From Deroplatys truncata (lineage: Eukaryota > Arthropoda > Insecta > Mantodea > Mantidae), in the NCBI GenBank assembly GCA_030765065.1, contig CM060988.1:202841565-202905564 (forward strand): DNA of 64,000 nucleotides, read 5' to 3'. Positions 10,595 to 57,110 of this stretch are shown piece by piece; positions within the stretch are counted from its first letter, which is position 1; each line of letters starts with the position of its first letter. The notes below the pieces were generated by a model. That model did not search any database, had not been told where the DNA came from, and saw nothing but the letters and a program-made list of their open reading frames with translations. The position numbers and the translations under genes were made by a program.

Positions 10595-10606
10595 ATCCGC
10601 ATTAAA

Positions 10607-10805: not shown

Positions 10806-10852
10806 ATCCGCATTAAAATCAATCCACCATTCCCCATTAATATCACTCCATA

Positions 10853-11082
10853 GAATTTCGTGAAAATCTTCGTATTGATCCTTGAATGGATTCTGAGTTA
10901 TAAGTGAAGTTTTTATCCGACTTTTCGTTTCTTATGCTATTCACGGATACAGACTCGTGCATCGAAGTAAGGCCTTTAGGGGTTACTTCCGGTGACGTCT
11001 TGGTATCCGATTTTTGGGAGGAATACAACACTTCCTCTACCTGTCTTTGGGAAATTGTAGAGAAAGTAATAAATAGATAAAT
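10853..11082 (-). repeat. AB repeat fragment (A-end half)
   Basis: Diverged minus-orientation piece. It matches the AB body around TTATCCGACTTTTCGTTT (10911-10928) and ends with GGGAGGAATACAACACTTCCTC and AGAGAAAGTAATAAA, the complement of the A end. The B half is missing. Confidence 0.6.
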
Positions 11083-11444
11083 ACAGTGTTGTTTTGTCAT
11101 GATCTCATATTTCTACGTTCATTCGACATAATAGGACCATAAATAGCAATTTGATTCAACAAGGTGTTTTTATTGAATTTCTGTAAGGTGAAATCACTGT
11201 AGGAAATTTTGTTGGCTGCCTGAAACCTTTCCCTGCTCACGCCATGACCATAATTCCCTGGGGTGGTCACATTCCTCATCAAGACTCGAACACAAACGAG
11301 ACTTCGTTACCTCCCTTAGAGCTCGAGATCCGACCCCAAGTTTTTCACAGCTAATTGCGGAATATGTTGCACCTTCACGTCTTAAGGCAAATTACTCGAG
11401 TAGTTATGAACTACACAAAATCCGACAAACTGGTCAAATATTAT
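11083..11444. other. No recognisable feature
   Basis: Between two AB fragments. Short open frames only, with no motif that I recognise. Confidence 0.4.
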
Positions 11445-11965
11445 CAAATACTACTCTTCACCCCAAACTACCCTTCACATGGAAAATGTTTCCTTATTTT
11501 GCAATTTGTCATGATTGTTCTAACGATTTTGATTAAAATACCATATGTTTACGATATTTTCATAACAAATAAAATCTTGAATTTTCTGGGAATGTCCAAT
11601 TAAGTCCTCTTCATTCTGGATAACTAGATATAATTGGAAAACTATAACAGATAGATGAAATCTTACAACACAAAAAAGTAGATCCCGTTAAAGCAGAAGT
11701 TATGTTAAACAACATTCTTTTATTTCCCAGATATTCTTTGCTATATGTTTGAATTTTCCAATACTTATACTCTGTTCAAGTGGTAAATCGCTATTCGTTT
11801 TTTCTCGTGGGCATGCAAAGAACATGGAACTTCATAGCGATCCGATTTTTAAAACCTGACTATCACTCTAGCCTGCTGTACAAAATGTGTAATCAAAGTT
11901 TATCTGGATTAACAAGAAGTACATAGATCAATAAGCTTTTATAGAGGAGTGAATGCAACACAGCA
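11445..11965 (+). repeat. AB repeat fragment (B-end two thirds)
   Basis: Plus orientation, old copy. It matches the body at CCCCAAACTACCCTTCACAT, TAACGATTTTGATTAAAATA and AATTTTCCAATACTTATACT, and the B end is reduced to GAGGAGTGAATGCAACACA. The A end is missing. Confidence 0.6.
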
Positions 11966-12883
11966 GAAGTTGTTTTATTTCTTTTTCATGTAAATATCGT
12001 AAACATGCGGTATTTAAACACAAATCGTTCCCAAGAGGAGTTTGGGAGGGTGACAAGTTTGGTTAAGAGCTGAAGCTTTCCTGGCGGCCATTTGCCTGGC
12101 TAGAAGACCGAGAAAACTTAAAAGTTAACAAGTTTGGTGTTTATCACAGTCACACACAAGGTACCTAATAGTCTCTTTAAAGATAGAGGTATAATTTTTG
12201 TGTTGAGAAGATGCTTCATCTTTTGACATGTTTTCTTAGACAGAAAAGGTGGAGATGTGTGTGTGTGGTAAGATTCTAAAAGAGTAATTTATCCTAATGT
12301 ATGCTACAGGCAGGCTTGTGTGGCTGTGACAATTAGCTATATCTGATGTGCCCGTCGACACTAGTTTCCTGTCCCATTGAGGAGACCTTGCTGATAAAAA
12401 CAACGTGCTCGTTATGACGTCGGGAAGCCTAGACATGACGTCACTTTACACCTCGGTTTTCAGTCAAGGGCTCGCGGATGCAGCCACAAAATCGATAGCA
12501 ATCCAGATGCACCGTGCAACCGGGGGCTTCCAGGCAACACACTGCTCCGTCATTTTAACTACCCCATGCAGTGCCATCATTACTTTCTGTAATGAGTTCA
12601 AATTATAATACTTGTATATTAACATTTTAGGATTACGATTCTGAAGTTTAAGCCCTAAACTCCAACTAAAAGCAGCTCCCAGCATGCACAAAATGTATGG
12701 CGAGCCTTGTGTTATTTACTGATACTATGATATATATACAGCTAATGTGGACCAGGATGACATTCTCTTCTCTCTTTCAATATGAAGAATACTAGAAGAT
12801 CCGAGGTCCTGTAGCAACACATAGAGCGATGGGTGTGTAAGACTCAAACATGCTCAACCAACACATTATTATCAAGAAATGAA
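11966..12883. other. Unrecognised AT-rich DNA
   Basis: About 0.9 kb with no supported gene, RNA or repeat. A short GT run lies at 12255-12268. Confidence 0.4.
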
Positions 12884-13440
12884 ATACATTCACAACACTT
12901 TCTCTATCCTCTATCGTTTATTAGTGGGTATGCAAACTATTCTTAAGAAAGAATCAATGCCATAGCCGGGATTTGAACCATGGATCTCCCGGTCTCCGTC
13001 CGGTTGCTCTAACCACTGAGCTACCATGGCAACATGCCGACACGACACTGAATTCTCCAGGGACCTAAAGTACTTACAACATTGTAAGTCGCCATTGGGG
13101 TATGTCATCTCAGTACAATTTGAGATCTCCTTGTGGTTTACCGGGAAAAATGCGAATCAGCTGGAGAATTTAGTGTCGCTCCGGCATGTTGCCATGGTAG
13201 CTCAGCGGTTAGAGCAACCGGACGGAGACAGGGAGATCCGTGGTTCAAACCCCGGCTATAGCATTGCATTTTTCAGTCGCTTGATTCTACCTTTCCACTC
13301 CTGTCCAACAGGCAGCTTGTGTGGAAAAACAATTAATTATAATTCTTAAGAAAGTTTGTTTTTCTATCTGCTCCATTTTAATCGAACAGAAATAGCTACA
13401 TTACACATTTATTATAAATGCAAAGGGAATAGCGATCCTC
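12884..13440 (-). repeat. AB repeat fragment (B-end part) carrying an insertion
   Basis: Minus orientation. ATACATTCACAACACTTTCTC begins the B end. The body continues with TTAGTGGGTATGCAAACTATTC, then is interrupted at 12952-13341 by a tRNA-headed element, and resumes at 13355 with TTTGTTTTTCTATCTGCTCC until about 13440. The A half is missing. Confidence 0.6.
12952..13341. mobile_element. SINE-like element with two tRNA-like heads in inverted orientation
   Basis: A 390-bp insert flanked by a perfect 13-bp duplication, ATTCTTAAGAAAG (12939-12951 and 13342-13354). The left part holds a tRNA-like sequence on the minus strand (about 12958-13030). The right part holds the same sequence on the plus strand (about 13191-13262). 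The inverted similarity spans about 105 bp per arm, including CAACATGCCG and GACACTGAATTCTCCAG on the left. The tRNA-like units have a pairable D arm (GCTC...GAGC), an A box (TAGCTCAGTGGTTAGAG), a B box (GGTTCAAATCC), and in the left arm a seven-pair acceptor stem (GCCATGG/CTATGGC). The T stem is mismatched, so these are SINE heads rather than working tRNAs. It ends on the right in an AATTAATTATAA-type tail. Confidence 0.75.
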
Positions 13441-14150
13441 ATTTTTAACTCTTCTACATTAGCAGGCCTTGTAACAAAGACTCTACGTTTCAAATATCCC
13501 TATAAAAAGTAATCATGTGGAGAGAGGTCTGCAACCAAACCTATTGTATGAGACAAATGAAACTGTTCACACAACTAAATGAGATAAATTACCTTTCATT
13601 GAAAAAATGAAAAAGCAATATGTTAACTTTAAAATTTTTGTCGATCACGTCACACCCCTTAGAATAATGGCTGAAAATTTTGTTTCTTTTTTGTAAAATT
13701 TTCCTTTCCAATAGGAAATTTGACCTTTCCGAGCATTCTTTTTATAAATGAGTTAATTATAGTTTTATTTACATTGTTCCTTACTTATGAAAGACCCTTT
13801 ATGTGAATTTTGTCATGTAGATATTTTATACTTTGCTCGGAGATTGTGACTCATTCAAAATCCCAAGATTTTCGCCGCAGTTAACACCGTGGTACTAACG
13901 GAAAGCATCCACAAGCAGGTAATTGGTTCATTAAAGAACAAAGGTATCTTGTGCCTTTATGGCTCATTAGAAACGCCAGTTTTTATGCAATTTAGCAGAG
14001 TCGGAGTGCTCCCTTTCGGAGAAAACAGACTTCATAATGAAGAAATACTCACTTCTGCCTTTGAAATAGCTTGTTATTTACCTGCAAGTAACTGAAGACA
14101 TCACACCATGACAGTATTCATACCTACCTCGTTAGCTTACTCCCTATATA
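13441..14150. other. Unrecognised AT-rich DNA
   Basis: No supported coding region. A 68-codon open frame at 13889-14095 has no homology that I recognise and lies in repeat-rich DNA. Confidence 0.4.
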
Positions 14151-14935
14151 TTTACTTTCACAAGCACATGCCTGGAGAAAGTGTAAAAAGTGTTGTATTC
14201 TACACAAACATTTTGGGATTTCTGAATACAAAAACAGCACTTAAAAAAACGTGTTTGTGTGAACAACATAACTAAAAGACAAACACCTAACTTGGTATTC
14301 AAGTTAAGCGTTTTGCATAGATGCGACACTAAGACTTCCAAGATAATCCCCTCACCCCGAAGTACCTGTTACATTGAACATTTTGGTTATTTTTGGTTTT
14401 CTTAAAAATGGCTCCAACGATTTTGATTAACGTATATCATAGCCTGTGAAGTACTCTTCATTCGGAAGGAATTTTGTGTAAATCTGCGTAACTAATATAC
14501 AATAAGAAACAACAAATGTATGACTGCCTCGGTGGTCGAGAGTTCCGGCTGGGGAGAATCATTCCCTGTTCTCCGCCGGCTCAGGAAGTATCAATGTGAA
14601 TAAATTGAACTACCGTTAAGGAAACCTATAGCACAGCGAGTAAAAACATCAACTGTTTCTCAAATCAAAGCCCCCGTTATTACCACAGAACTTAAAGGGG
14701 GCTCTACAAATGAAACAAGAGAACATATATCTCTCTAGAACACACAATTTATTTCAAATAGTTTTTGTGGCATATAAGAAGAGTATGGAGTTTCAAAGCC
14801 ACCATATAGCGATCCACTTTTTAAACATTTGCCTATTACTTCAGCTTTCTACAACGAAATCTGTAATTATTATTAAGAAAACTCTACTGTACAATATAGT
14901 TGCGCTCATTTATAGAAAAATTAAATTAGTTTGAA
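14151..14935 (+). repeat. AB repeat, diverged, with an internal foreign segment
   Basis: Plus orientation. TTTACTTTCACAAGCACATG is a decayed A end. The body (AAAAACAGCACTTAAAAAAA, ACATAACTAAAAGACAAAC, CTCCAACGATTTTGATTAA) runs to about 14515 and resumes near 14765 at GCATATAAGAAGAGTATGG. The intervening 14516-14760 includes GACTGCCTCGGTGGTCGAGA and does not match the family. It may be another insertion, but I see no clean target duplication. Confidence 0.55.
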
Positions 14936-15007: not shown

Positions 15008-15889
15008 TTTTTACTTTCTCTACTACGTATAGTAAGTAGGGGAAGTATTGTATTCCACCCAAAAATTCGATACCGAGATTTCACCGGAAATACACGTTTT
15101 GAAACCTCCTGAATCCAAAAAAGGCATTTTTGGAAACATGTCCGTGTGTGTGTCTGTGTGTGTGTGTGTCTGTGTGTGTGTGTGTGTGTGTGTCTGTGAA
15201 CAGCATAACTCAAAAACGAACAATCGGATAAACACCAAACTTGGTATTTAGGTTCAGTATCTTCCAGAGATGCGACACGAAGGTTTTCAAGAAAATCCCC
15301 CCACCCCAGACTACCCTTTACATGGAAGATTTTTCGAAAATTTTAATTTTCTCAAAAATGGCTCTAACGATTTTGATGAAAATATCATATGTTTAGGGTA
15401 ATGTCATGAGAAATGAAATGTATATCTCGAATTTTCTGGGAATGTCTCCAAAAGTATTCTTCATTGTGAACGACTTTTGCATAACTGGTAAACCATAAGA
15501 GATAGACAAAATTTTACTACACAAAAAATGTAGATCGCGTTAAAATACACAACTTATGTCATATACATTTCTTTTGTTGAGTGAACCGTTTTCGAGATAT
15601 TGCTTGTTATTTCCTTAAATTTTCCAATACTTATACTTTTTCTCAAATGCGTTATTCATTTTTTTAATGTCCTAGACATGCAAGAGAATGGAATGCGTCA
15701 CATAGCAACCAGCGTTAAAATATTTGACTATCGCTTAAAACCTACCATATTCCCCTTGCATCTACAAGAAAATTATCAATAAGATTGACATCTCGATATC
15801 TCGATTAACATGAAGCATATGGAGAATAAGCGTTTGTAAAAATAGGTTGTACAAGAGTAGAGAAAGTCATGTGAGTGTAACACATCAGA
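15008..15889 (+). repeat. AB repeat, full-length reference copy
   Basis: The best plus-orientation copy (about 880 bp). The A end TTACTTTCTCTACTACGTAT (from 15011) includes a hairpin, CTACTACGTATAGTAAGTAG (15020-15039). The B end includes CATGTGAGTGTAACACATC (15869-15887), another hairpin (ATGTG/CACAT). The motif ACTTTCTCTACT near the A end recurs inverted as AGTAGAGAAAGT near the B end (15857-15868). It is bounded by T runs (15008-15012 and 15890-15895). No open frame or tRNA promoter boxes are visible. It could be a non-autonomous Helentron/HINE-like element or a MITE, and the evidence does not decide which. A GT microsatellite has expanded inside it at 15143-15196. Confidence 0.75.
15143..15196. 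repeat. (GT)n microsatellite within the AB repeat
   Basis: Mostly GTGTGT interrupted by GTCT steps. Other AB copies have only a short GTGTGTGTCTGTG at the same place, so this is a local expansion. Confidence 0.85.
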
Positions 15890-16810: not shown

Positions 16811-17285
16811 TAAATTAGCATAAACTACACAGAAATTAGAAGAGTGGGTGATTACAATACACCAATTTGCACATATGGCAGAAGTGTAGAAGTGATAACT
16901 GTTAGCGACGACGGAGGGGAAACGTTTCTGTTAAAACACAAGTTTGTGTTTTCCAATACGCACACAGAGAAGCTTTTAGCTAAAGCGGTCTGTATGTAAC
17001 ACGTGTCGCGATATTCACAGGGTAAAGGAACATCACAAACTTCGAACCTCTGTTCTTTAATTCCTTTCATTTCGTTTTCACCCACAGTTATACTTTTCGT
17101 CTACTACCTATGGTTTCTCAAATTACAGTACAGTTTGGCGTTTAAATGTTTCCTAATGTAAACATTGTGTTTATGATACAAATTACGTTACTAGGGGCCG
17201 ATACATTTGCCTTTAAAATGTAGAAAACGTTCGCTGACACCGGAGGTGTTTCACCTATACCTGTTATTATTTCAGGCACAGACGA
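16811..17285. other. Unrecognised DNA between the RT relic and an AB fragment
   Basis: No motif or open frame that I can support. Confidence 0.4.
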
Positions 17286-17830
17286 CAACAAAGTTACTTA
17301 TTTCAAATAAACTGTGTGATTCAAAGAGATATGTATTTGTTCTGTAGTAAGTTTATATTTCTGAAATGTTTACCAGTTATACTGAATTATACCAAAATCA
17401 TTCAGAATGAAGAGGACATTTTAGGCTATTCAAAAAAAATCAAGGTATACATTTTATTTGTCATGAAAGTATATTAAACATATGATGTACTAGTCAAAAT
17501 CGTTACAGCAATTATTGAGAACATTTACATTTTCGAAAAATTGTCCATGTAACAAGTAGTTTGGTGTGGGGAATTTTCTTTGAAATCTTCGTGTCGCATT
17601 CTTGGAATATAATGAACTTCAAAAAAATCAAGCTTTATATTTATCAAAATTTTCATTTTCGTTATGCTGCTCACAGATAAACGTACATTTGTCTTTGTCT
17701 AAAATGCTTGTTTTTTTATTCAGGGAGTCTCAAAGCGTGTACTTCCATAAAATCTCGATATAGAAGTTATAGGTGGAATACAACACTTTATCTATTAGAA
17801 GTAGGCGCTAGAGATAGTAATACACTCGTG
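17286..17830 (-). repeat. AB repeat fragment (A-end two thirds)
   Basis: Minus orientation. The body includes ATACATTTTATTTGTCATGA, AATCTTCGTGTCGCATTCTT, then GGTGGAATACAACACTTTATC and CTAGAGATAGTAATA at a mutated A end. The B end is missing. Confidence 0.6.
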
Positions 17831-23855: not shown

Positions 23856-23987
23856 GAACCGATATTCCAATCGACCTCGATATTGAGATTGCCCTAAAGA
23901 TCCTGTGAATGAGAAATCTACATCTTTTAACGAAGGCAATGATTTTGAGGAATTTTCCCACCATTATTGATAAATGTTCATTTTTAT

Positions 23988-25060
23988 TTTCTCTACGCTT
24001 ACCTATAGTAAGTACCTACAAAAAATATTGCATTGCACTCAAATATTCAAAACCGAATACACACATTTTGAGCCTCTCTAAATTAATAAATCTGATGTGA
24101 TAAACTCACTTGATCTTCTCTCCCGTTTATCTTTATTAGTGGGTACAGAAACAGTTTTTACTAAAGCTTATTTTTCTATCTACTACAGTTTAATCCAAAT
24201 AAATTTTTGCAGAAATAGTTAAATTGCAGATTTTGTTATACACACAAAGGGAACAGCGATAGTCAAATGTTTAAGAACTGGACGCCATATGCTGCCTTAA
24301 AATTCCATACTGTTTCCATAAAATTGCGAGAAACAACTGAATTTTGACAGGACTTCAAGAGAATGGCCAAGTAATGAACAATTCGAACCATTAATAACGG
24401 TTATCTAAAACACAAAAAAGTTATTTGAAATAAATTATGTGTTTTAAAGAGGTCTACATTTTTGTGTATTACGTTTTCGTCTATGGCTTGACGTTTACCA
24501 GTTATATCAGATTATACAAAATTCCTTCCGCATGAAAGGACTTCATAGGCTATCCACAGAAAATTCAAGATATACATTTTATTTGGCATGTAAATATCTT
24601 TAATATATGGCGGTTTAATCATAATCGTTAAAACCATTTATTATAAAATAAAAATTTCGAAAAATGTTCCATGTAAAGAGTAGTTTAAGGTGGGGGATTT
24701 TCTTGAAAATCTTCGTGTCGCATCTTTGAAAGGTATATTTATACCAAGTTTAGTATTTATCCGACTTTTCGTTTGTGAGTTATGATGTTCACAGACACAC
24801 ACGTATACATTTTTCTAAATGCCTATTTGTGTGGTTTTTTTTAATCAGCAGGCCTCAAAACTTGTATTTCTGGCCAAGTCCTGATACCGAATTTCTGGGT
24901 GGAGGTACAAGGTGCGTGGTAGAGAATGTGAAAGACGCATTTCAAAAAAAGAAAACAAAACTGTGAGATTGAAACCTGAGAACCGAAAAGTTGGTTAAAT
25001 ACTTGGTATTTAAGTTGAGTATTTTCCAAGGATGCAACAATTCAAATGCTATATTTTTTG
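23988..25060 (+). repeat. AB repeat split by another AB copy
   Basis: Plus-orientation pieces at 23988-24085 (A end TTTTCTCTACGCTTACCTA, then CATTTTGAGCCTCTCTAAAT) and about 24955-25060 (GAAAAGTTGGTTAAATACTT, GTATTTAAGTTGAGTATTTT). They are consecutive in the family consensus. Between them lies a whole minus-orientation AB copy (24088-24945), so one member inserted into another. The rest of the outer copy is not recognisable after 25060. Confidence 0.6.
24088..24945 (-). repeat. AB repeat, nearly full length, nested in another AB copy
   Basis: Starts at TCTGATGTGATAAACTCACT (B end complement) and ends at GGTAGAGAATGTGAAAG (A end complement). The internal body matches at TTTCCATAAAATTGCGAGAA, TTCATAGGCTATCCACAGAA and AAATCTTCGTGTCGCATCTT. 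Confidence 0.7.
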
Positions 25061-25934
25061 AAGAATCGATTGTAACACCGACCCTGGACATTTGTTTCTT
25101 CCATGGAACAAGGTCACGTAATTACAGTCGCCTGCGCATAGACAACCCTCTTGTCAATAGCGTCCACTTCTGTGTTTACATGGGCACTGGATTTTGTCTG
25201 TTGTACGAAATATTGCTTCCCTATTCACATTTACCTCAAAGTACACAATTTCAAGTCCCGTTTACGGCAATGTACTTATAAAATGTGGTACAAATGTTGT
25301 CATGTTCCAGTTTTTTTATTATACTTTGATTTTAATAATTGTTTTCAACAGCAACAATTTTTAAAGACACAAATGGCTATTTAATTGGATGTGTACCATT
25401 TAGGTAAAGCACCGCGCTGAACTTTAAACTCCATTTTTCTCAACTCCTTTTTCAGCATTTTCAGTATTCAAAATGTATCTTGGACCACAGTTTATAACTT
25501 ATTAGCTTAAAACTTTCAGGAGAGCGGGTCTCAGGAATTACAATTAAAATTGTTGTGTACTATCTAAAATATATTAAATATATTAGCTATTTTCCATTAC
25601 TGACATTGGAAAAGTTAAAAAATGTCTGCAAAAAATGTCTTTACGTTTGTAAATTAACTCAAATTAAAAATTTGGGAGCGATATGATAAACCTAGGATCC
25701 AAGGAGTATTAATTCATATTACCACATCAAAAATTGCGAATAAAACAATTAATACATCAACAACGGTTTGACACGGCTTGATAAAATCTTGTGCGCACTA
25801 TATGTTTTATGTTCTGAATATGAAAAAGTCAGAGCAATCGGAACAAAGCTGTGCATTTTTGGATTTGTATAGATAATTGCCTTAATGTATTTATTATTAT
25901 AGAAGCGGAATATACGCATATTTTAAACTAAAAC
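25061..25934. other. Unrecognised AT-rich DNA
   Basis: No supported gene. Two overlapping open frames of 77 and 96 codons (25151-25384 and 24991-25281) have no recognisable motif. Confidence 0.4.
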
Positions 25935-26230: not shown

Positions 26231-26987
26231 ACTGATCATATATACACGTACAGGTATAACAGAATCTCGACTTGACAACCTAATGTCGCAATAATTGGAA
26301 AAGTTAACCTTAAACAAGTTGTCGTAGCTTCGTGCTGGCGATGTTTACTGCAAACAATTTTAATTGCGTTATTTACAATTAACGATAACCAATAGGCTTA
26401 GATTCTGTTTATATGAACAAAAGCTCAGAGCTCTTGTGTCTTTTTCTCTCCTAATTGTTTTCCGCTTTTTATGCTTGCATTAGCGCCCTAAGGGAATAAC
26501 AAATACATTATCCAATCAAGATAGTGGCTTTTCGAATAAGCCGGAAATTAAAAAAATATATATATTAAGGTATGCACAAGCCTCGAGTTCGAATCCTGCG
26601 AAACAAAACTAATCTGGAGAAATGGAAAGCTTGAACGAGGAAGTAATGAACACAAAACAAAGAGACGGCTTCACTATATGGAAGAATGAAAGGGTGAAAC
26701 AAATCAATGGAAACGAGAGAGACGTAATATATAAAGAGCTGCAAGGAGTTGGAACGGTAAATAACACCAGTTCGAACTCTTGCCAGTATTCACACCGCAT
26801 TATTAAGTTGCAGAGAATAAAAAACAACAGACAAAAGGCACAAGTCGCCTTTTCTTCAACATCAAAAGAGGAACGTTGTATTTCAAGCTATGGAAACTAT
26901 AACAAGGATTTGGGGTAACTTTAAGGCAAGATTTACGCGTTTAAATGTATCTGTGGCAGAAGTAAATCTGATAATCACAAATTTTCT
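26231..26987. other. No recognisable feature
   Basis: AT-rich. GAGTTCGAATCC at 26586-26597 resembles a Pol III B box, but no A box or SINE body is clear. Confidence 0.35.
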
Positions 26988-27779
26988 TGATTGTTACGTT
27001 CACATGACTTTCTCTATTCACTCTTGTACGCACTATTCTTATGAAAGTTTATTTTTCTGTCTACGTTTTTAGGAATCATTTCATTACACATTTCGCTGTA
27101 GATACAAGCGAGATACAGGATGCTGAGTGATAGGTAAGTATTTAATAAGCGGGTGGCTGTATGCTAGCTTTGAGATTCCATACTGTTTCCATAACAACCT
27201 GAGAAACAAATGAATGGTAACTCACCATTTCAAATTATAATAAAATATTGGTAAATGGAAACTATAGCAACGAATACCTCCGAAAAACTTAGTACCACAA
27301 TTACTCACTCCAAATTTTATAGAAGTAAGTTTGTCATGATTTACCAGTTACACACACTTGTACAAAATTCGTTCAGAATGAAGTCTTAACAAGCTATTCC
27401 CACAAAATTCATGAAATCCATTTTATTTCTCATGCAAATATTTTAAACATATAGTATTTTAATGAAAATATGAATTTTTGAGAAAATCAAAAAGAGCTAA
27501 AAATGTTCTATGTAAAGGCTAGTTTACGGTAGAAAGATTTTCTTGGAAATTTTCATGTCGCATCCTTGGAAGATGCTGAACTTAAATGCCAAGTTTTATA
27601 TTTAACTAGCTTTTAGTATTTGAGTTATGCTGTTCACACACGCGCACCTTCTCCTTTTATTTTCTGTCTATTCAGGGAGTCTCAAAACATGTATTTCCAT
27701 CCCTATCGAATTTTTAGGTAGAATGCAATACTTTCTCTATTTACTACAGGTAAGTGATAGAAACAGTAAAAAGCTAAAG
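26988..27779 (-). repeat. AB repeat, near full length
   Basis: GTTCACATGACTTTCTCTAT (B end complement) through TTCCATACTGTTTCCATAAC, TTTTCATGTCGCATCCTTGG and AAAACATGTATTTCCATCCC to GATAGAAACAGTAAAAA. It ends in AAAAA like other copies. Confidence 0.7.
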
Positions 27780-28107: not shown

Positions 28108-28585
28108 TTCTAACTTTCTCTACTAAATGCAACCTATAGTAAGTAGAGCAAATGTTTCTTTCCAACAAAATATTAGATATCGAGATTTCATTGGAAACAC
28201 ATGTTTTGAAGTTCCCTGAATAAATAAAAAAAAACATTTTTAGAATAACACCCCTGTATTTGTGTGAAAAGTATAACTCAAAAACAAAAAGTTGGATAAA
28301 TACCAAACTTGGTATAAAAGTTCAGTATCTTCCAAAGATACAATACAAATATTTTTAAAAATCTTTGTATGGACAATTTTTTCATTACTTATATTTTGAC
28401 AAAAATGGATCTAACAACTTAATCTCGTTATAACACATAATGTATATAAAAAGTGACATTAACCATTTTCGGGATATTCGTTGTGATTTGAATTTACAAA
28501 TACTTTAAAACGCTTTTTGAAGTTGTAAGTGACCACGACTCGCGATGTCATGCAAGAGTATGGCATTTCAAAGTTTCCTGCACCC
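28108..28585 (+). repeat. AB repeat, internally deleted
   Basis: A end AACTTTCTCTACTAAATGC, then CGAGATTTCATTGGAAACAC, GTTGGATAAATACCAAACTT and GTTCAGTATCTTCCAAAGAT. The later body is shortened and the B end is not clear. Confidence 0.65.
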
Positions 28586-28965
28586 CTTTTGTACCTATAA
28601 TGAAAATGTTTCTACAAACTTTCTGCAGTTTTTGTAAGAATAAAACAGTAGATGGCAAAAACAACACATCACGTTTTCTTCTTCATATCCATATGTCAAT
28701 GCTCCTTATCGTTTTCCTTATCCTTTGTGAACTTTCTGGTACACGTTTTCCTCCTTTCCTTTATCGGTTGATATGCATGCGATTCCTATATCCCTTGGTT
28801 TGTGGAACAGTGTAAAACACGTTAGATCACATTTTGCTTGTGGCATGTAGCCAAGCTCGTTCTTACGCCGCACATGCGTATGGCAGTCTCAACAGAATGT
28901 GAACATGATCCCCATTCATTTCAGCTTCAGTAGGGAAATAAGAATGGATATCAAGGAATGGATAT
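28586..28965. other. No recognisable feature
   Basis: A 71-codon open frame at 28600-28815 looks hydrophobic but has no context or motif supporting a gene. Confidence 0.35.
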
Positions 28966-35752: not shown

Positions 35753-36099
35753 TAATCTTAAGTTGCACTACAATGCAACAGAATATATTGCTTTGTCATG
35801 TTCGTGGTGAAAATCTTTAACACTTTGAATCTGCCCACTAAGCCGTAGAAACGCCTCTTTACGTTGAAAAATTGTGAAGGGATTTTCGCTAACGTATATT
35901 TTATGGGTAAAACGCAAAATTTGGCAAGTGTGATATTCAAATATTTTAGCATAAGTCTGTTTTCATTCCTAAGCAGGTCAAGTAAAAGTAACGGAAAAGA
36001 ATGGGGAATCTTTCAAGCATATTCGAAGGCTCAACCTTTACTTGGAAGAGGGAAGCATAAAACAATAGTTTAGAAACAACTAATTCCATGAAAAAGAAT
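35753..36099. other. No recognisable feature
   Basis: AT-rich DNA after satellite 2. The short open frames on both strands overlap and have no motif. Confidence 0.35.
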
Positions 36100-36415
36100 A
36101 TTTGATACAACTATGTACTTAAATGACTACACTTTTCCGTAATAAGTTTTTATCTCTAATCTATTTTTAAGAGTGAACAGGTCTTCACAGACTATTCACA
36201 AACATTCGAGATATACATTGTATTCATGCCAAATATGTACTTTTAGCCAAAATGGTTAAGGCTATTTTTGAAGAAATAAAAAATAACGAAGATTGTGCAT
36301 GTAAAATGTTGTTTAAATGGGGGTACACGGACACCTCAAAACGTGATGTGATATTTTTGGGTGAAGTACACATCCTCTACTTCCCATATGTAAGCGATGT
36401 AGAAAGTACAAATAT
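36100..36415 (-). repeat. AB repeat fragment (A half), old
   Basis: Minus orientation. ATTCGAGATATACATTGTAT, AGAAATAAAAAATAACGAAG and ATGTAAAATGTTGTTTAAAT, then TTTTTGGGTGAAGTACACAT and TGTAGAAAGTACAA at the decayed A end. Confidence 0.5.
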
Positions 36416-39510: not shown

Positions 39511-40484
39511 AATATTTAAATAAACATTAAAATACAAAGTTGTTTCTTAAACGTCGGGCGAAGGCCACCGGAAAGTTTGTATCGTACGTGGGGCGAACAT
39601 TCCTAGAAATAATCTCCCGCAAGTTTGGCATCCATTACGTGCGTGGTCTAAAACATCCTTCAAAAACTCATAGTGCCCAAATTAGTGCCTATGTTAGCCT
39701 TTAGCATATTACGCCGAGCTCTAATTTGTAGACCATCATCTTCCTATACTTCTGCCGTGAGCATGAGGTCGGCAATCGACCGTAAGGCTGTGATGCCACG
39801 GATTATTAATTTCTAATGTTACACTGTGTCTGATGTTTTCTAGGTTTGTTAGTTTTATTGCGTTTTGTTTGAAACTGGCACTGACTTTTTAGGTCTTTCA
39901 TGTGTGATTTCCCAAATTATTTTACATAGTTTTAGTACAGTAAATCTTTCAGTATAACAGCTGAAATTGCAGTCAAAATGATTTTCATCCGACGGAAGAA
40001 ACACATGTCCAAGTTAGGAATTATTTAACTTTTTACTGAACTTCCTCAGAAAAGAGCCCGATGAGCGAATTTTGAAAATTTTAAACTACGAATTTTTGCG
40101 AACTACTCGTAATTGACATTTTTGCCACATACACATAATATGTAAGTAGGCAATATGCTCACCACGCTTCAAAACTATAGTACTAACAGTTCTTTAATTA
40201 TTCATTTTATACCTTTTCTTTTAGCTGCACCATTAAAATGTTCCTTGTTGCAACATGGGCTATTAATATTTTATTAACACATTCCCCATAATTTGAAAAA
40301 CTTTACGAAAGAAAACAAATTAACGTTGAGCAGGTTCATTTTTCACCAGAAATTTTAAAAATTTATACTTTTAATATTATAAAACAATATGATTACAGTA
40401 GATAAAACTAAATTCCGAGCAATTATAACAACATATATTATAGTAAGCTTATTTACCAAATTTCAGCTTATTATAACAAAAATT
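39511..40484. other. No recognisable feature
   Basis: AT-rich, apart from 39545-39800 which is more GC-balanced. No motif recognised. Confidence 0.4.
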
Positions 40485-41325
40485 CTTATGTGATACATTC
40501 ACATGCATTTCTCCACCCTCTATCTTTATTACTGGTATACAAACTATTCTTACTAAAGCTTGTCATTCTATCTAGTATACTTAATCCAAATAAACCTTTA
40601 CAGAAATATCTACATTACACATTTCGTTATAGATACAAAGAGAACAGCGATAGTCAAATGTTTAACAACTGGACGCTATATGCTGGCCTTAAAATTCCAT
40701 ACTGTTTCCATGACATCGCGAGAAACAACTAACTGAATGTTGACAGGACGTTAAAAGAATTCCAAGTGTTGAACAATTCAAACCTTTAATGACGAATATC
40801 TCAGAAACGGCTTATGTCACAAAAAACTTATTTTAAGTAAATTGTTTTTCTTAAAGAGATCTAGTTTTCGTGTGGTACGTTTTCGTCTATCGCTTAACGT
40901 TTACAAGTTATACAAGATTATACAAAATTCCTTTCGAATGAAGAGGGCTTCACAGGCTATTCCCAGAAAATTCAAATGTACATTTTATATTTGTCTTGTA
41001 AATATCTTCAGTATATAGCATTCTAATCAAATCATTAGTAATTTTTTTTAGAAAACGATAATTTTCGAAAAATGTTCTTGTAAAGGGTAGTTAGGGGTGG
41101 GGAGATTTTCTTGAAAATCTTCGTGTCGCATCCTTGGAAGATAGTATGGTATTTATCCGACTTTTCGTTTTTGAGTTATGCTGTTCACAGACACACACAC
41201 GGACATGTTTCCAAAAATGCTTTAATTGGATCCAGGACGCCTCAATACATATATTTCCGGTGAAATCCAGGTATCGAATTGTTGGGTGGAATGCAATACT
41301 TACTATACGTAGTAGAGAAAGTAAA
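40485..41325 (-). repeat. AB repeat, full length
   Basis: TTATGTGATACATTCACATG (B end complement) to ACTATACGTAGTAGAGAAAG and TAAAAA (A end complement). It is flanked by AAAAA on the left (about 40478-40482) and ends in AAAAA on the right. Confidence 0.75.
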
Positions 41326-42159
41326 AATGTTACCAAGCAGGGAGTTTACTCATCCTAGAACTACCCTCATTTTCTGGGCGTGGTGGCACACTTAATATCA
41401 CAACCATATTAATACCTGATTTTGTCACATAAAAATCCTAATTTCGTTATTATATGCTCCCATTTTAAACTATTACTGCGCTCTAAACTTGAACAGTAAC
41501 ATGGCTCTGGAATAAAATTAGCCCTCTTTCTGAGAGACGAGCAGCATTTTTCACCAAATTTCTCTCATCCAGACCTCAGTTTTTACGATTTCACACATGC
41601 ATTCTCCGTAAATTGAAAAACGGGAGAACATGTAAATGGTATTAAAATGTCGTAAACTCACGTATCGTGAACTTGCAGCAGCCACCACCCTCTGCAGGGA
41701 ACTTACCTGAAACAACAACAAACAATTCAATTGCATCCACTCTCATACTAACGCCATTTGGAAGCAGATTACCAACTAAACCTCTGTAAGTGGATACCGT
41801 GATTAACATTACCAACGTGCATTATTAAAACATACGTACAGTGTTGCCAAGTGCTCTTCCACGAGGCAAATTGATATCACTTTTATTGCTAACTGGATCA
41901 CGGTGTTTTCATGTTTATAAATTGTACTTCAACTGTTTTTAATGGTGCTTTAACATTCACTTCTCGTGGTATATGCAATTGTCCAAACTTGGTATTTAAT
42001 AGCCTCGAGAATCTCATATTGTCCATGTTCGATTGCGATGAAAAGTTTAAACAAACTTCACACCTAAGAGGTTAATCAAAATATAAACGAGATTTACTAG
42101 AAAATTGTGGTGAAAAAATTATCATTTCCGTCAGAATTTTACAACCTTCTGCCCCCCTC
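41326..42159. other. No recognisable feature
   Basis: No supported gene or repeat. Short open frames only. Confidence 0.4.
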
Positions 42160-42737
42160 CTTTTAGTTTCTCTACTACTTACTTACAGTAAGCAGAGGAA
42201 TTATTGCATTCCACCTAAAAATTCTATATAGAGATCTTACTGCAAATACACGTTTTGAGGTCCCTGAAACCAAAACATCCGTATGTGTTTGTGTGTGAAC
42301 ACTATAATCCCCCACCACACTAGCCTTTACATGAACAATTTTCGTTATTTTATTTCATCAAACATTGCTGTAACGATTTTTATTAAAATACCATAAGTAT
42401 GACAAATGAAGTTATCTTGAATTTCCTTGCAATAGCCCGTGAAATCTTCTTCATTGAATGACTTTTGCATAATTGGTAAACCGTAAGAGATAGACAAATC
42501 TTACTACATAAAAGTCTAGACCTCATATGCCAAATATAATTGTTTCTGGCATTTTGAATTTTCATATGCTTATACTTTATTCAAGGGTAAATCGCTATTC
42601 GTTTTTTCTCTGGAACTTCAAAGCCATCACATTGCGTGTGTGTCTGTTTCTCACAAGATTAACAAGAAATGGATAGAAGAAAACGCTTGATAAAGAAAAA
42701 GTCGAGAAAGGCATGTGAATGCAACACATCAGATACT
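42160..42737 (+). repeat. AB repeat with both ends and internal deletions
   Basis: A end TAGTTTCTCTACTACTTACT, then TTGCATTCCACCTAAAAATT, with the middle shortened. The B end is GGCATGTGAATGCAACACAT followed by CAGA. About 580 bp instead of 880. Confidence 0.7.
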
Positions 42738-43164: not shown

Positions 43165-43480
43165 TTCACATTTCAAGACACAACTTTTATTTGTCATGCA
43201 AGTATCTTAAACATATGGCGTTTTAATCCAAATCATTAGAACCATTTTTGGGGAAATCAAATATGTTAAGGGCAGTTTGGGATGGAGAAATTTTCTTCAA
43301 AAACTTCGTGTCACACGCCCTTGGAAGACGCTGAGCTTACATACCATTTTTCGTTTTTGAGTTGTGCTGTTCACAGATCACATGCGCTAAAATGCCTTTT
43401 CTGGGACCGCAAAACGTGTATTTTCGGATAAATTTCTATATCGAATGTTCGGGTGGAACACAATATCCTCTAAATATTTG
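43165..43480 (-). repeat. AB repeat fragment (A half)
   Basis: Minus orientation. TTTATTTGTCATGCAAGTAT, AAACTTCGTGTCACACGCCC, TTTCGTTTTTGAGTTGTGCT, and GGGTGGAACACAATATCCTC. The hairpin end is missing. Confidence 0.6.
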
Positions 43481-43639
43481 CATACATTATACAGAACTTT
43501 ATTTTCATCCAAAGGCGTTACTTGCGGAATGGGAATCAGCAAGCGATGACATTCGTCACTTCTTGGCGTGTATCTATAGAATATTTTTCAAGATAAAACA
43601 GGAAATATTACATACCTAAACTTGAGCGATCGATGACAA

Positions 43640-45640: not shown

Positions 45641-45683
45641 CTTTTGAAGTTAAATTGTGAAAAAAACTGTACGTGATAGAAAA

Positions 45684-45723
45684 TACTTCCACTACTTACT
45701 ATACGTAGTAGAGAAAGTAAAAA
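45684..45723 (-). repeat. AB repeat stub (A end only)
   Basis: ATACTTCCACTACTTACTAT and GTAGTAGAGAAAGTAAAAA. It directly abuts the B end of the next copy at 45724, sharing the A run. Confidence 0.75.
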
Positions 45724-46570
45724 TCTGATGTGTTACACTCACATGACTTTCTCTACTCTTGTACAAACTATTTTTACAAACGCTTATTCTCCATATGGTT
45801 CATGTTAATCGAGATATTAATCCTATTGCTAATTTTCTTGTAGATGCAAGGGGAATATGGTAGACTTTAAGCGATAGTCAAATATTTTAAGAGCTGGTTG
45901 CTATGTGGAGTATTCCATTCTCTTTGCATGTCCAGGACATAAAAAAATGAATAACAAATTCCCAATTGAGAAAAAGTATAAGTATTGGAAAATTTAAGGG
46001 AATAACAAGCAATATCTCGAAAATGGTTCACTCAACAACAACAAAAAAATGTATATGACATAAATTGTGTATTTTAACGCGATCTACATTTTTTGTGTAG
46101 TAAAATTTTGTCTCTCTCTTATGGTTTACCAGTTATGCAAAAGTCGTTCAAATTGAAGAATACTTTTGGAGACATTCCCGGAAAATTCAAGATATACATT
46201 TTATTTGTCAAGAAAGTATCTTAAATATATGATATTTTAAGCAAAATCGTTAGACCCATTTTTGAGAAAATTAAAGTTTTCGAAAAATGTTCCATGTAAA
46301 GGTTAATCTGGGATGGGGGGATTTTCTTGAAAACCTTCGTGTCGCATATCTGTTAGATACTGAACCTAAATACCAAGTTTGGTGTTTATCCGACTGTTCG
46401 TTTCTGAGTTATGCTGTTCACAGACACACACACACGGATATGTTTCTAAAAATGCTTTTTTTGGATTCAGGGGGCCTCAAAACATATATTTCCGGTGGAA
46501 TCTCGGTATCGAATTTTGGGTGAAATACAATACTTCCCCTACTTACTATACGTATTAGAGAAAGTAAAAA
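45724..46570 (-). repeat. AB repeat, full length
   Basis: A clean minus-orientation copy of 847 bp from TCTGATGTGTTACACTCACA to ACTATACGTATTAGAGAAAG and TAAAAA. AAAAA precedes and ends it. Internal landmarks are CCAGTTATGCAAAAGTCGTT, ATATACATTTTATTTGTCAA and CTTCGTGTCGCATATCTGTT. Confidence 0.85.
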
Positions 46571-51381: not shown

Positions 51382-51733
51382 TAATTTTAAGTACTTGTTT
51401 GTAGTTCAATAAATTAGAATAGAGGAAAGAGAAATCGTTGAATTACTTAAGTGAATGCATAACTGAAATTAACCCAAAATCTAAAAAAAATCTAAAAAAC
51501 AAATGCTTGTAATTTTAGAATCCACTTTTATTACTTTCTGTACTACGTATAGTAAGGGAAGTATTGTATTCCACCCAAAAATTCGATACCGAGATTTCAC
51601 CGGAAATACATGTTTTGAGACCCCCTGAATCCAAAAAAAGCATTTTTAGAAACTGTCCGTGTGTGTGTCTGTGAACAGCATAACTCAGAAACGAACAGTC
51701 GGATAAACCTCAAACTTGGTATTTAGGTTCAGT

Positions 51734-51747
51734 ATCTTCCAAAGATG
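51734..51747. repeat. 14-bp target-site duplication of SINE-2 (right copy 52127-52140)
   Basis: ATCTTCCAAAGATG versus ATCTTCCAGAGATG, one mismatch, bracketing the SINE exactly. Confidence 0.85.
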
Positions 51748-52126
51748 GCGGCGCCGTGGCCGAGTGGTTAGACCGCTCGCCTCCCAACGAGGCGGCCCGG
51801 GTTCAATCCCAGGGACCTGCATGTGGGATTTGTGGTGGACGAAGCGGCGTCTGGGCGGATTTTCTCCGGGTTCTCCGGTTTCACCCGCCATTCATTCCAC
51901 CAACTGCTCCATCATCACCTTTCCTTTCATCCATTTCACCACCATTTTGTTTCATCTACTTCCTTCATCCCATACCAGGCATCGGGCTGATCACCCATCC
52001 TGGATGCTCTGTCTGATCCATGAGTGTCTGCTCCTCGATGGGCCTCTGACCCCAGGCACCCGCTTGTAAGTCCTGGGGGGTGTAAGTCCTACATAAGAGG
52101 AGGGTAAACAGATAATGAATGAATGA
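51748..52126 (+). mobile_element. SINE-2: tRNA-derived SINE (379 bp)
   Basis: The head is GCGCCGTGGCCGAGTGGTTA with A box TGGCCGAGTGG (about 51756-51766), an anticodon-like hairpin (CGCCT...AGGCG) and B box GGGTTCAATCCC (about 51799-51810). The body includes GGATTTTCTCCGGGTTCTCC and pyrimidine-rich CATTCATTCCACCAACTGCT. The 3' end is an (ATGA)n-like tail, GATAATGAATGAATGA. It is unrelated to SINE-1 in the body and tail. The D-arm sequence suggests a Leu/Ser-like tRNA ancestor, but the anticodon loop is altered. Confidence 0.85.
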
Positions 52127-53576
52127 ATCTTCCAGAGATGCGACACAAAGGTCTTCAAGAAAATCCCCCCACCCCAGACTACCCTTTACATGGAAATTTT
52201 TCGAAAATTTTAATTTTCTCAAAAATGGCTCTAACGATTTTGATTAAAATATCATATGTTTAACATATTTTATGACAAATAAAACGTATATCTTGAATTT
52301 CCTGGGAATGTCTCCAAAAGTATTCTTTATTGTGAACGACTTTTGCATAACTGGTAAACCATAAGAGATAGACAAAATTTTACTACACAAAAAATGTAGA
52401 TCGCGTTAAAATACACAATTTATGTCATATACATTTTTTTAGTTAAGTGAACCATTTTCGAGATATTGCTTGTTATTTACTTAAATTTTCCAATACTTAT
52501 ACTTTTTCTCAAATTCGTTATTCAATTTTTTATGTCCTGGATATGCAAACAGAATAGAATGCGCCACATAGCTACCAGTGCTTAAAAGATTTGACTATCG
52601 CTTATAACCTACCATATTCCCCTTGATCTACAAGAAAATTAGCAATAAGATTGACATCTCGATATCTCGAGTAACATGAAGCATATGGAGAATAAACGTT
52701 TGTAAAAATAGTTTGTACAAGAGTAGAGAAAGTCATGTGAGTGTAACACATCAGATTTTTTTTTTACCTAGCGAACGCTTCGGGATCGTTACGAGACATT
52801 TAAATACCCTTGCGCATTTGGTTGCTAGCTGTTTATATTTTTAAAACTTGATTTTAAGGCGTTTGTTATTTTCAGCATTTGTGCATATTCAAAATGTTCC
52901 ACACGATGTAGTTTTCATTCATTCATATTGACGTTTTTTATGCTTATTTAAAAAACCCAAATAAATAAAACTCATGTAATTTTTCTGTGTAATGAATCGT
53001 TTTTGCACTACTAATTTTTGAAGATAACAACGCGTACAAAAAAAAAACATAAAAATGCAAATACAAAACTGCAAAACTTTTTTTCTCTTAAACTAAGAAT
53101 GGTAGAAAAAAATTATGACAGATTTGTAGTTCCTTGACATAGAAGCAACACAAGTTTTTTTCTTTTTGAAAAATGCATCATGTATTGCATTTTGCATATG
53201 TGCATAATTTTATATTTTGAAAATTAATAACCTGAAAACTAATTAAGATTTTGGATTGAAATTCACAAAACAATTATATCTAAAGAAGGCTGACATGTGG
53301 TTATAAATTTCAGCCCAATTGAATGGATAGTTTAGGAAATAGCAATTTCAGTTAAAACAAACCAGCACCTTATTGTCCTTTTTTCAGCTTTTCCGTTCCT
53401 TTTTTCATCTGAAATTTGCACCTAAAAATCCTAACCCTCATGATAACCTAGGTAACATAGAGTGTCATTGTTACACACCGGAGAAATGGCCTTTTATTGC
53501 GGTGCACTTCTATGATCAATATGTTAAAGATATGCAGGCATACAATGGAGGCTCGGGCGAGTGTATTGTTAAAACA

Positions 53577-54300
53577 TCTGGTGCGTCACATTCACACTAG
53601 TGGGTATACAAACTATTCTTACAAAGTTTATTTTCATATGTGCTTCATTTTAATCCAGATAAACTTTTACAGAAACAGCTACATTACACATTTCGTTATA
53701 GATACAAAGAGTACAGCTGGACGCTATATGCTGCCATACTGTTTCCATGACATCGCGAGAAATAACTGAAAATCGACAGGACTTTAGAATGGCGAAGTAT
53801 TGGACAATTCGTTAATAATCGACATCTAGGAAATGGCTGTCGCCACAAAAACGTTATTTGAAATAAACTGTGCGTTTTAAAGAGATCTGCGTTTTTTTGC
53901 GTACTTCGTTTCCGTCTGTTACTTAACGTTTACCAGTTATACAAGATCACACAAAATTCCTTCCAAATTAACAGGACTTCAAAGGTTATTTACAGAAAAT
54001 TCAAGATATACACTTTATTTGTCACGTCAATATGTTTAGTATATAGTATTTTAATGGAAAGCTTTAGAACAATGTTTGAGAAAATCGAAAATTTGGAAAA
54101 ATGTTGCACATAAAGGGTAGTTTGGGGTGCGGGGAATTTGTTGAATATCTTGTTGTCGCATCTTTGGAAAGTACTGAACCTAAATGCAGGTTTTGTATTT
54201 AACCTCAATTGCTTCTTTGAATTCAAGTCTGAAAAGATATATTTGCGGTGTAATGTCGGTATCGAATGCAATACCTTCTCTATCTACTACGTTACGTAAA
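53577..54300 (-). repeat. AB repeat with internal deletions
   Basis: TCTGGTGCGTCACATTCACA (decayed B end complement) to CTATCTACTACGTTACGTAA (A end complement). It lies just outside the right end of the hAT element. Confidence 0.65.
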
Positions 54301-54695
54301 AACACTCCAACTGCCTTGATGTTGCAACGACGAGAAGCAAAATACGGATGTAGGAATTTCAAAGTTGTATTTTTTAAAATATCGCGCAGGACAAACATCT
54401 GCAATTTTAATGAGCTATATCTACATGTTTGCCGGCAGTATGATGATATTTATATCTTCATTTCCTAATTATATAATATTCACTCGTAATGAGAAGAATT
54501 TCAAAGATTATACAAAAAATTTCAAATGTACATTTTATTTGCTATGCCAGTAGTAAAACATATTTTAATCGACATTTTAAGGGTATTTTTGAGAAAATCA
54601 TAAAGAACAGTTATTTTTCCAAGTAAATTGATTGTCTAGGGTGAGAGGGTTTTGTGTAAATATTCGCATTGCATCCTGAAAGATGCGAGGTATTG
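54301..54695. other. Likely an older AB fragment (54440-54670), otherwise featureless
   Basis: ACAAAAAATTTCAAATGTAC, ATTTTATTTGCTATGCCAGT and AGGGTGAGAGGGTTTTGTGT resemble the minus-orientation AB body but are strongly diverged. Confidence 0.4.
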
Positions 54696-55353
54696 ATACA
54701 ACTTTCTCTACTACTTGCGCACACTAGGTAGAGGAAGCATTGCATTCCACCCAAAAATTCATTATCGAGATTTCGCAGGAAATGCATGTTTTAAGATTCC
54801 TGAATAAAATTTTTTTTTAGAAAAAGTCCTTGTATGTGTGTGTGTGTGTGTGTGTGTGTAAGTGAACAGCAAAAACCAAAAACGAAAATTCGGGCTTGGT
54901 ATTTAAGTTCAGCATCTCCCATGCGACACGAACATTTTCAACAAAATCCCCCCAGTCCAAACTACCCTTTCAATAGAACATTTTCGTTATTTTTATTTAT
55001 ACAAAAATGACTTAAGTATTTTGATTAAAATACCATAGAATATTTTCGATTGGTATTTGCAATGCAAATAAAATGTATATCTTGAATTTCCTGCGAAGTG
55101 CTCTTCGTTCTTAGTGACTTTGACATAACTGGTAAACCGTAAGAGATAGACAAAATTGTAGATCTCGTTAAAGCACACAATAACCATTTCTGAGATATTC
55201 TTTGTCTAACACTTTAGCGTACTACTCTTCTTGTACCTGCAATGAAGTATGTAATGAAAGTTTATTTCCAATAACAAGAAGTACATAAAAGAATAATTTT
55301 TATAAGAATAGTTTGCGAAAGATTGAGAGAATCTTGTGAATGCAGTGCATCAG
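54696..55353 (+). repeat. AB repeat, both ends present, shortened
   Basis: A end AACTTTCTCTACTACTTGCG, CATTGCATTCCACCCAAAAA, a (TG)n run at 54835-54860, TAACTGGTAAACCGTAAGAG, then the B end TGTGAATGCAGTGCATCAGA. Confidence 0.7.
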
Positions 55354-55404
55354 ATTTTTAAAGTTATTCATCTCTCTTTGACATACATCTGCACGCGTAC
55401 TTTC

Positions 55405-55670: not shown

Positions 55671-55689
55671 ATTTAAATTACACGTCATT

Positions 55690-56084: not shown

Positions 56085-56768
56085 TGTGCTTGTGATACAT
56101 TCACACAACTTTCTCACATATGTCTTTTATATGTTAATATAAACTTATTGTTTTATCCTCACTACATTCTCGCCATATATTTTTACCTAGCCATCGTTTC
56201 AAATTAAGCGGAAACAGTATTCAAATATTATGGAAAGAAAAGAAAGGGGAGAAAAGCAAGAATCACAGACTTTTAAGCATGTCTGTTAGATGACGTTTAG
56301 GAAAGGTCTAAGTTTACAACATGGAATATTTCGAAAACGGCTGACGCTGCGAAAAAATTAACGCAAATGGTCTCATTTTCCCGTGGTAAATTTTTGTAAA
56401 TCTTCTAACATTTCCTTGTTATACTAAATTATACAAAATTTCTTTCTTTAGACACATTCTTAAATACGAATTTGGTCATAACGAATAGCTAAATTTCAGA
56501 TTGGATTTGGCAGAAAGCTTTGCGATCTATTCAGCTCTCTCATCTCCAACAATTCCAGCATGGCCTTTAACCTACGATAGACAAATGTGTTGGTATTTTG
56601 AATAATGCTCCTTCTAATTGTATTTGCCGCCAAAGGATTGTTGTTGAATGGGTAGAAGAGAGGCGTTTGGTATTTAGCCGTCTTTATGCCATTTACCCAT
56701 ACATCTACAGCGAATTCTCCGTATAGAATTTTTGGGTGGAATACAAGTTGCTAGAGAAAGTAAAAAGA
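56085..56768 (-). repeat. AB repeat, diverged, both ends partly present
   Basis: TTGTGATACATTCACACAAC (B end complement) to TTGGGTGGAATACAAGTTGC and TAGAGAAAGTAAAAA (A end complement). The middle is strongly diverged. Confidence 0.6.
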
Positions 56769-57041
56769 ATGAGTTTCCCTTTAACAGCATTCCGATATCT
56801 GCATTAACATCAAGCTTTCGCAACGGAAATTTGCCTTTCCTCTCTGCCAAGAAAGGATATTTTTGCAGAATAGCAAATGAGCCGGGTGTTGTTGCATAAA
56901 TAAAGGCTTCCTAATTAAAAATTGAGCATCGCGTCCGCCTCTCCACTTAGCCAGCGCGATGCGAGCACATGTTGACCTGCATGCAGCACAGACCACGGAG
57001 ATAATGGCTTCTGTCGAGGAGCGAAGCTGTCACATTCCACT
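56769..57041. other. No recognisable feature
   Basis: Short open frames only. Confidence 0.35.
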
Positions 57042-57110
57042 TTACTTTTTCTACTACTTACCTAACGCAAGTATTGTATTACACCCAAAAATTCCATACC
57101 TAGATTTAAT
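57042..57110 (+). repeat. AB repeat stub (A end)
   Basis: ACTTTTTCTACTACTTACCT and GTATTGTATTACACCCAAAA, then unrelated sequence. Confidence 0.6.

Follow-up and report, generated by a model that had tools for sequence, protein, structure and literature searches.

DINE-1 of Drosophila, the Helentrons and HINEs, and the Helitron2-type elements are the closest described systems, and our account of them follows the pertinent parts of three papers (PMC2374699, PMC4067079, PMC5148889). DINE-1 carries 13-bp subterminal inverted repeats (subTIRs), the 5' one accompanied by a partial inverted repeat. It also has a GTCY-rich microsatellite and a stem-loop right after the 3' subTIR, inserts between TT, and lacks a significant open reading frame (ORF) (PMC2374699). 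Canonical Helitrons are bounded by 5'-TC and 3'-CTRR, while Helentrons and HINEs possess subterminal inverted repeats, a 3' palindrome, T-strings, and TT or T-rich targets (PMC4067079). The HINEs of one mite have subTIRs of 12-15 bp, a 3' palindrome and T-rich targets that are left unmodified, and the members of one family have in common 11 bp or more of identical subTIR (PMC4067079).

Here we describe the AB repeat, which occurs in a 64,000-base stretch of DNA from Deroplatys truncata (the window, analysed as a whole). The HINE/DINE-1 features found in AB are subTIRs within the 11-15 bp range, a 3' stem-loop, a 5' partial inverted repeat, and TT or T-rich insertion with a T-string at the border. 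We are highly confident that AB is a non-autonomous rolling-circle transposon, of the HINE/DINE-1 type by its structure; the protein of its partner would be needed to separate a Helentron from a Helitron2 affiliation. The initial annotation had pointed towards Helitron or Helentron derivatives, and the ends of AB do fit the Helentron/HINE anatomy as given in the part of PMC4067079 used here. The identification gives a name to 18% of the window, sequence that might otherwise be classed as unknown or taken for a MITE. Should this density hold genome-wide, it would amount to a large HINE expansion in an insect, and the conserved ends provide a handle for finding an autonomous partner. The general picture of rolling-circle transposition is unchanged by AB.

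Copies of AB in the window

A profile built from the repeat and iterated three times detected 30 pieces, which cover 11,518 bases (18%) of the 64,000-base window. At an E-value of 1e-3 it had no match in five first-order Markov shuffles or in the reversed window. When 15008-15889 was searched against the window with blastn, 31 rows were returned, one of them being the query. The profile pieces were merged by hand into 22 insertions, and the 23rd, a lone 5' end at 57039, came from blastn and an end-only profile. The resulting total of 23, nine on the plus strand and 14 on the minus strand, agrees with the earlier estimate of about 23 copies in both orientations. The copies and pieces are listed below, with the evidence in parentheses.

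10852..11072, minus strand: AB copy, 5' part (profile)
11420..11967, plus strand: AB copy, 3' part (profile)
12883..13435, minus strand: AB fragment 13342-13435 and 3' end 12883-12949, read as one insertion (profile; end-only profile, E 5e-4)
14149..14869, plus strand: AB copy in three pieces (profile)
15008..15889, plus strand: reference full-length AB, 882 bp including five 5' Ts (sequence, blastn, profile)
17275..17823, minus strand: AB copy, 5' part (profile)
23981..25123, plus strand: older AB copy A, pieces 23981-24090 and about 24935-25123, split by copy B (profile, alignment)
24091..24934, minus strand: AB copy B within copy A; paralogous empty site, no visible duplication (alignment)
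26986..27772, minus strand: AB copy, nearly full, with a degraded 3' end (profile)
28108..28605, plus strand: AB copy with deletions (profile)
35923..36408, minus strand: damaged AB copy with a weak 5' end, E 0.0023 (profile, end-only profile)
40484..41327, minus strand: full AB copy of an older subfamily (profile, pairwise comparison)
42160..42733, plus strand: AB copy with both ends and internal deletions (profile, end/flank table)
43170..43496, minus strand: AB copy, 5' part (profile)
45668..45723, minus strand: first 56 bp of a second unit, fused to the 3' end of the neighbouring copy in a head-to-tail junction (blastn, profile)
45724..46570, minus strand: full AB copy of the young group (blastn, profile, pairwise comparison)
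51528..52755, plus strand: full AB copy of the young group with a SINE-like insert at about 51748-52126 (blastn, profile)
53577..54290, minus strand: AB copy (profile)
54405..54686, minus strand: AB fragment (profile)
54696..55354, plus strand: AB copy with both ends and an internal deletion (profile, end/flank table)
56091..56766, minus strand: damaged AB copy (profile, end-only profile)
57039..57107, plus strand: AB 5' end alone (blastn, end-only profile)
63602..64000, minus strand: AB copy of the young group, crossing the window edge (blastn, profile)

Six units are full or nearly so, with a range of 787-882 bp; the initial annotation had given 850-880 bp for full copies. Their lengths are 882 bp (15008), 844 bp (24091), 787 bp (26986), 844 bp (40484), 847 bp (45724), and 849 bp for the copy at 51528, not counting its insert of about 379 bp. 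The other 17 insertions are incomplete or run past the window edge (63602). In a pairwise comparison of eight copies, a young group (15008, 46570, 51528, and 63602) showed 92.9-97.0% identity, and the older copies (24936, 26992, 40484, and 54290) showed 62.3-80.8% identity both mutually and against the young group.

The insert at 51748-52126 in the copy at 51528-52755 is SINE-like by eye, has a short (ATGA)n-like tail, and is flanked by ATCTTCCAAAGATG and ATCTTCCAGAGATG, a 14-bp duplication with one mismatch. Between the AB pieces 12883-12949 and 13342-13435 lie two tRNA-like Rfam matches, at 12958-13030 on the minus strand and 13191-13263 on the plus strand; they are perhaps tRNA-type SINEs inserted in opposite orientations into one old AB copy (12883-13435). 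Taken alone, 12883-12949 resembles a 3' end lacking a body, but together with the fragment 13342-13435 it is read as one interrupted copy.

The window also contains other repeats, which presumably resemble cockroach or termite contigs. A second dispersed repeat with recurring peptides is present at 1320-1544, 10487-10720, 28851-29219, and 55423-55677, and its pieces beside AB copies are linked by three blastn rows of 50-64 bp with about 86% identity. Four tandem arrays (21189-23855, 29631-35745, 57634-60132, and 61256-62967) have units of about 111, 119, 43, and 47 bp.

Anatomy of the AB unit

On the plus strand, the reference copy (15008-15889) has the layout TTTTT-ACTTTCTCTACT ... AGTAGAGAAAGT-CATGTGAGTGTAACACATCAGA. 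The order at the 5' end is TTTTT-ACTTTCTCTACT-10-nt spacer-AGTAGGGGAAGT, and that at the 3' end is AGTAGAGAAAGT-C-ATGTG(AGTGTAA)CACAT-CAGA. The parts are as follows.

15008..15012, plus strand: 5' T-string TTTTT (T profile of the 5' ends, junction, nested site)
15013..15024, plus strand: 5' subTIR ACTTTCTCTACT (motif count, inverted pairs, shuffles)
15035..15046, plus strand: AGTAGGGGAAGT, the inverted partner of the 5' subTIR (the 'IR' of DINE-1), forming the 5' hairpin (two mismatches; fold)
15144..15198, plus strand: (GT)n/GTCT microsatellite (Tandem Repeats Finder)
15856..15867, plus strand: 3' subTIR AGTAGAGAAAGT (motif count, inverted pairs)
15869..15885, plus strand: 3' hairpin ATGTG-AGTGTAA-CACAT, followed by 4 nt (CAGA) to the 3' end (alignment, fold)

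The 12-bp motif ACTTTCTCTACT/AGTAGAGAAAGT occurs 33 times in the window with up to two mismatches, against 8.43 expected and a maximum of 18 in 100 shuffles. None of 5000 mononucleotide shuffles reached the perfect match of 12 bp that the two 45-nt ends of the reference copy share. The hairpin at each end and the inverted subterminal motif of the initial annotation are present where it placed them. Long terminal inverted repeats, which it described as absent, do not occur among the 25 listed of 57 inverted pairs. The GT stretch starts at about position 122-139 in eight of the ten copies examined and is the only feature that Tandem Repeats Finder reported within 15008-15889. About 657 bp separate the microsatellite from AGTAGAGAAAGT, and no stop-to-stop ORF of at least 70 aa lies wholly inside them.

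The ends are largely fixed. End-only profiles, built from 12 of 14 5' places and 10 of 10 3' places, located 14 5' ends and 10 3' ends at E-values below 1e-4, and nothing appeared in six control sequences up to E = 1. Variation of the ends between copies had been named in advance as evidence against the initial annotation; the ends recur in these 14 and 10 places, but the 3' ends of older copies have drifted. The 3' subTIR is exact in only four of 12 aligned 3' ends and is decayed in the older copies.

The folding of the ends was examined in single copies and in alignments. The 5' hairpin has 15 pairs in the single-copy fold, and the single-copy fold energies are modest (z -0.72 to -2.26 for six stretches). 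At the 3' hairpin, nine distinct rows were compared: columns 18-30 pair in 8 of them and columns 19-29 and 20-28 in all 9, whereas each of the three remaining pairs forms in 3 to 6 rows; 427 of 500 shuffles pair at least as well, giving no support from covariation. At the 5' hairpin, 78.1% of the cells are paired in 14 copies, compared with 41-56% in slid versions, a figure biased in its favour because the structure was drawn from one of these copies; 46 of 500 shuffles pair at least as well, which is not significant. Since neither hairpin has significant covariation, both are based on consensus and position.

The termini bear directly on the class of the element. A canonical Helitron (Helitron1) derivative would insert between A and T and have 5'-TC and 3'-CTRR ends; the hairpin near one end of AB and the lack of a clear target duplication would suit it. 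However, the 3' terminus of AB is CAGA in nine of 11 ends and CTRR in none, its 5' end is a T-string followed by ACTTTC, and subTIRs together with a 5' hairpin are Helentron/Helitron2 traits in the consulted parts of PMC4067079 and PMC5148889. We consider this derivation extremely unlikely. The minus-strand TC that had been likened to the 5'-TC of Helitrons is the complement of CAGA and sits at the hairpin (3') end, so it does not correspond to a Helitron 5'-TC. The GTAAAAA terminus is the reverse complement of TTTTTAC, that is, of the 5' T-string. The absence of CTRR had been counted as a doubt over the Helentron lead; CTRR belongs to canonical Helitrons (PMC4067079), and therefore its lack in AB is no argument against a Helentron/HINE.

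A short, noncoding unit with 12-bp inverted repeats and numerous copies could also be a MITE mobilized by a cut-and-paste DDE transposase, and a 2008 paper did class DINE-1 among the MITEs and argued that it duplicates TT (PMC2374699). However, the inverted repeats of AB are internal and placed asymmetrically, 5 nt from the 5' end and 22 nt from the 3' end, and each end has a separate hairpin. With the evidence from the insertion sites given below, a MITE appears very unlikely.

Insertion sites and a model of transposition

TT lies directly 5' of 13 of the 16 AB 5' ends in the end/flank table, whereas TT makes up 10.5% of the dinucleotides in the window. The frequency of T at these 16 ends is 0.69-0.94 at positions -1 to -5 and 0.31-0.50 at -6 to -10. 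At the 3' ends, T occupies +1 in eight of 11 cases and TT follows in six of 11; the T frequency is 0.64-0.82 from +1 to +6, compared with 0.31 window-wide. TT does not adjoin the remaining three 5' ends or the remaining five 3' ends. Degraded ends were left out of the table, namely three 5' ends (43496, 54290, and 36408) and two 3' ends (56091 and 12883). The T-string at 45724/45723 enters these statistics twice, once for each side of its junction. The five Ts are probably part of the AB element. If they are, the upstream Ts carry no information on the target; on the 3' side of AB, the target appears to be T-rich.

The longest exact adjacent repeats in the eight two-ended copies are TTTTT, TTT, ATTTTT, TTT, TTTTT, TTTTA, none, and TTT. 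These flank repeats are T-runs with at most one A, and a duplication of Ts only is possible at each site, which would also be compatible with a MITE. The nested pair, spotted in the profile table, provides the single empty site: copy B (24091-24934, minus strand) lies inside copy A (from 23981, plus strand). When the rejoined copy A is aligned with the consensus, no gap remains at the junction if copy B takes the five terminal nt; otherwise, a 5-nt gap is left. The site fits an insertion without duplication, contrary to a MITE, although the same picture could result if copy A had long carried a 5-nt indel. For 19 of the 23 copies, the nested one included, searches with the rejoined flanks gave no blastn row extending more than 15 nt past the junction on both sides.

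Alternatively, the T-rich flanks could represent an A-tail seen on the complementary strand, as expected of a non-LTR retrotransposon or SINE. Yet the 5' ends of AB are retained as often as the 3' ends (14 and 10 places), the eight two-ended copies have no flanking repeat beyond the T-runs, the 3' end is CAGA in nine of 11 cases and not an A-tail or simple repeat, and a search of Rfam at gathering thresholds detected no tRNA part in any AB copy. In the window it marked two tRNA-like places, neither of them inside an AB piece. The probability of a retrotransposon origin is negligible.

A head-to-tail junction, ...CACATCAGA-TTTTTACTTTCTCTACT..., is present at 45724/45723, where CAGA is joined to TTTTTACTTTC with exactly five Ts between CAGA and ACTTTC. 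It may have arisen as a rolling-circle product, or one unit may have inserted into an older copy's T-string; it speaks against a MITE. Comparable partial tandems are known for Helitron2-type elements, and the Fusarium paper offers the same two readings, rolling-circle product or insertion, for a tandem triple in Metarhizium (PMC5148889, in the part used here). This one junction would also be in line with a satellite unit scattered by recombination. However, it is the single abutting head-to-tail pair among 23 insertions in the profile table, and the copies lie on both strands; a satellite has virtually no likelihood. Tandem Repeats Finder, with a longest period of 500, gives no verdict on this point. 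The canonical Helitron, MITE, SINE/LINE, and satellite readings were rejected on ends, asymmetry, flanks, and dispersal.

As a non-autonomous rolling-circle transposon, AB would depend on a partner elsewhere in the genome for the Rep/Helicase. This enzyme would recognize the 5' T-string and the subTIR hairpin and nick there. Rolling-circle replication would then peel one strand off, and the 3' subTIR with its hairpin would act as the stop signal. The single-stranded copy, or a putative circular one, would be joined between the Ts of a T-rich site without target duplication. The enzyme and the intermediate in this scheme are modelled on published rolling-circle transposition, and AB itself contributes the unit with its largely fixed ends, the arrangement of subTIRs and hairpins, T-rich surroundings, a nested insertion with no visible duplication, and a head-to-tail junction.

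No autonomous partner emerged when 20 ORFs, picked from the longer ones of the 152 stop-to-stop ORFs of at least 70 aa in the window, were scanned against Pfam: they yielded no Rep or Helitron helicase. The matches were of the LINE, mariner, DUF4817, and DUF659 types, and two were weak (PH_32 and SNF5). A 356-aa open frame at 17948-19018 (minus strand) has mariner matches (Transposase_1 and Mos1 HTH). Another 356-aa open frame, at 47394-48464 (minus strand), matches DUF4817 at its N-terminus only and by eye resembles a Tc1/mariner-type transposase.

Comparison with known rolling-circle elements

AB had no blastn match at E 1e-5 in phage and plasmid records, and its exact patterns had none in viral contigs (three patterns) or in bacterial and archaeal genome contigs (two patterns). 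Insect DNA is not expected in these collections and records close to the window may have been left out, so these absences are weakly informative. Letter strings from the ends and core of AB retrieved nothing on transposons from open papers, as judged by title. By the subTIR rule, AB would be a family of its own unless its subTIR is already listed, a judgement made from open papers and not from RepBase or Dfam. The earlier suggestion that the repeat may be undescribed is possible for the family, while the kind of element is already published. There is a slight chance that AB represents an unsampled rolling-circle branch, intermediate in structure between the mite HINEs and DINE-1; its partner would then be distinct from the known Helentrons and Helitron2 elements, and AB could occupy a double-digit share of the genome.

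Compared with DINE-1/INE-1 of Drosophila, as presented in the relevant part of PMC2374699, AB shares the 12-13 bp subTIRs, a 5' end able to fold because a partial inverted repeat adjoins its subTIR, a microsatellite within the 5' half, the stem-loop a few nt past the 3' subTIR, the TT or T-rich insertion, and the lack of a significant ORF. The letters of the subTIR differ, ACTTTCTCTACT in AB versus ATACCCGTTACTC in the DINE-1 of D. melanogaster, D. simulans, and D. sechellia. DINE-1 has a variable central repeat region, whereas in AB Tandem Repeats Finder reports a GT stretch only; the likeness described here is structural.

The HINEs and Helentrons of Metaseiulus and Culex resemble AB in their subTIRs of 12-15 bp, which begin close to the 5' terminus (after 2-4 nt in the mite and after 5 nt in AB), their 3' palindrome, and their T-rich targets, with border strings of 2-5 Ts in Culex (PMC4067079). 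In the mite, the subTIRs are themselves palindromes and the distance to the 3' end is about 38-60 bp, whereas those of AB are non-palindromic and the 3' one lies 22 nt from the end. The 5' inverted repeat of DINE-1, absent from mite HINEs according to the consulted part of the same paper, is present in AB.

Helitron2/FoHeli elements of Fusarium also have inverted repeats that are asymmetric, insert adjoining Ts, and in some groups carry a hairpin at either end; one copy has inserted 2 bp upstream of another copy's partial 5' end. Their ends start with TCAG or TGCCT, whereas AB starts with TTTTTAC (PMC5148889). From these comparisons, what looks new is the AB family, while the HINE/DINE-1 kind of element to which it belongs looks already known from the parts of PMC2374699, PMC4067079, and PMC5148889 considered here.
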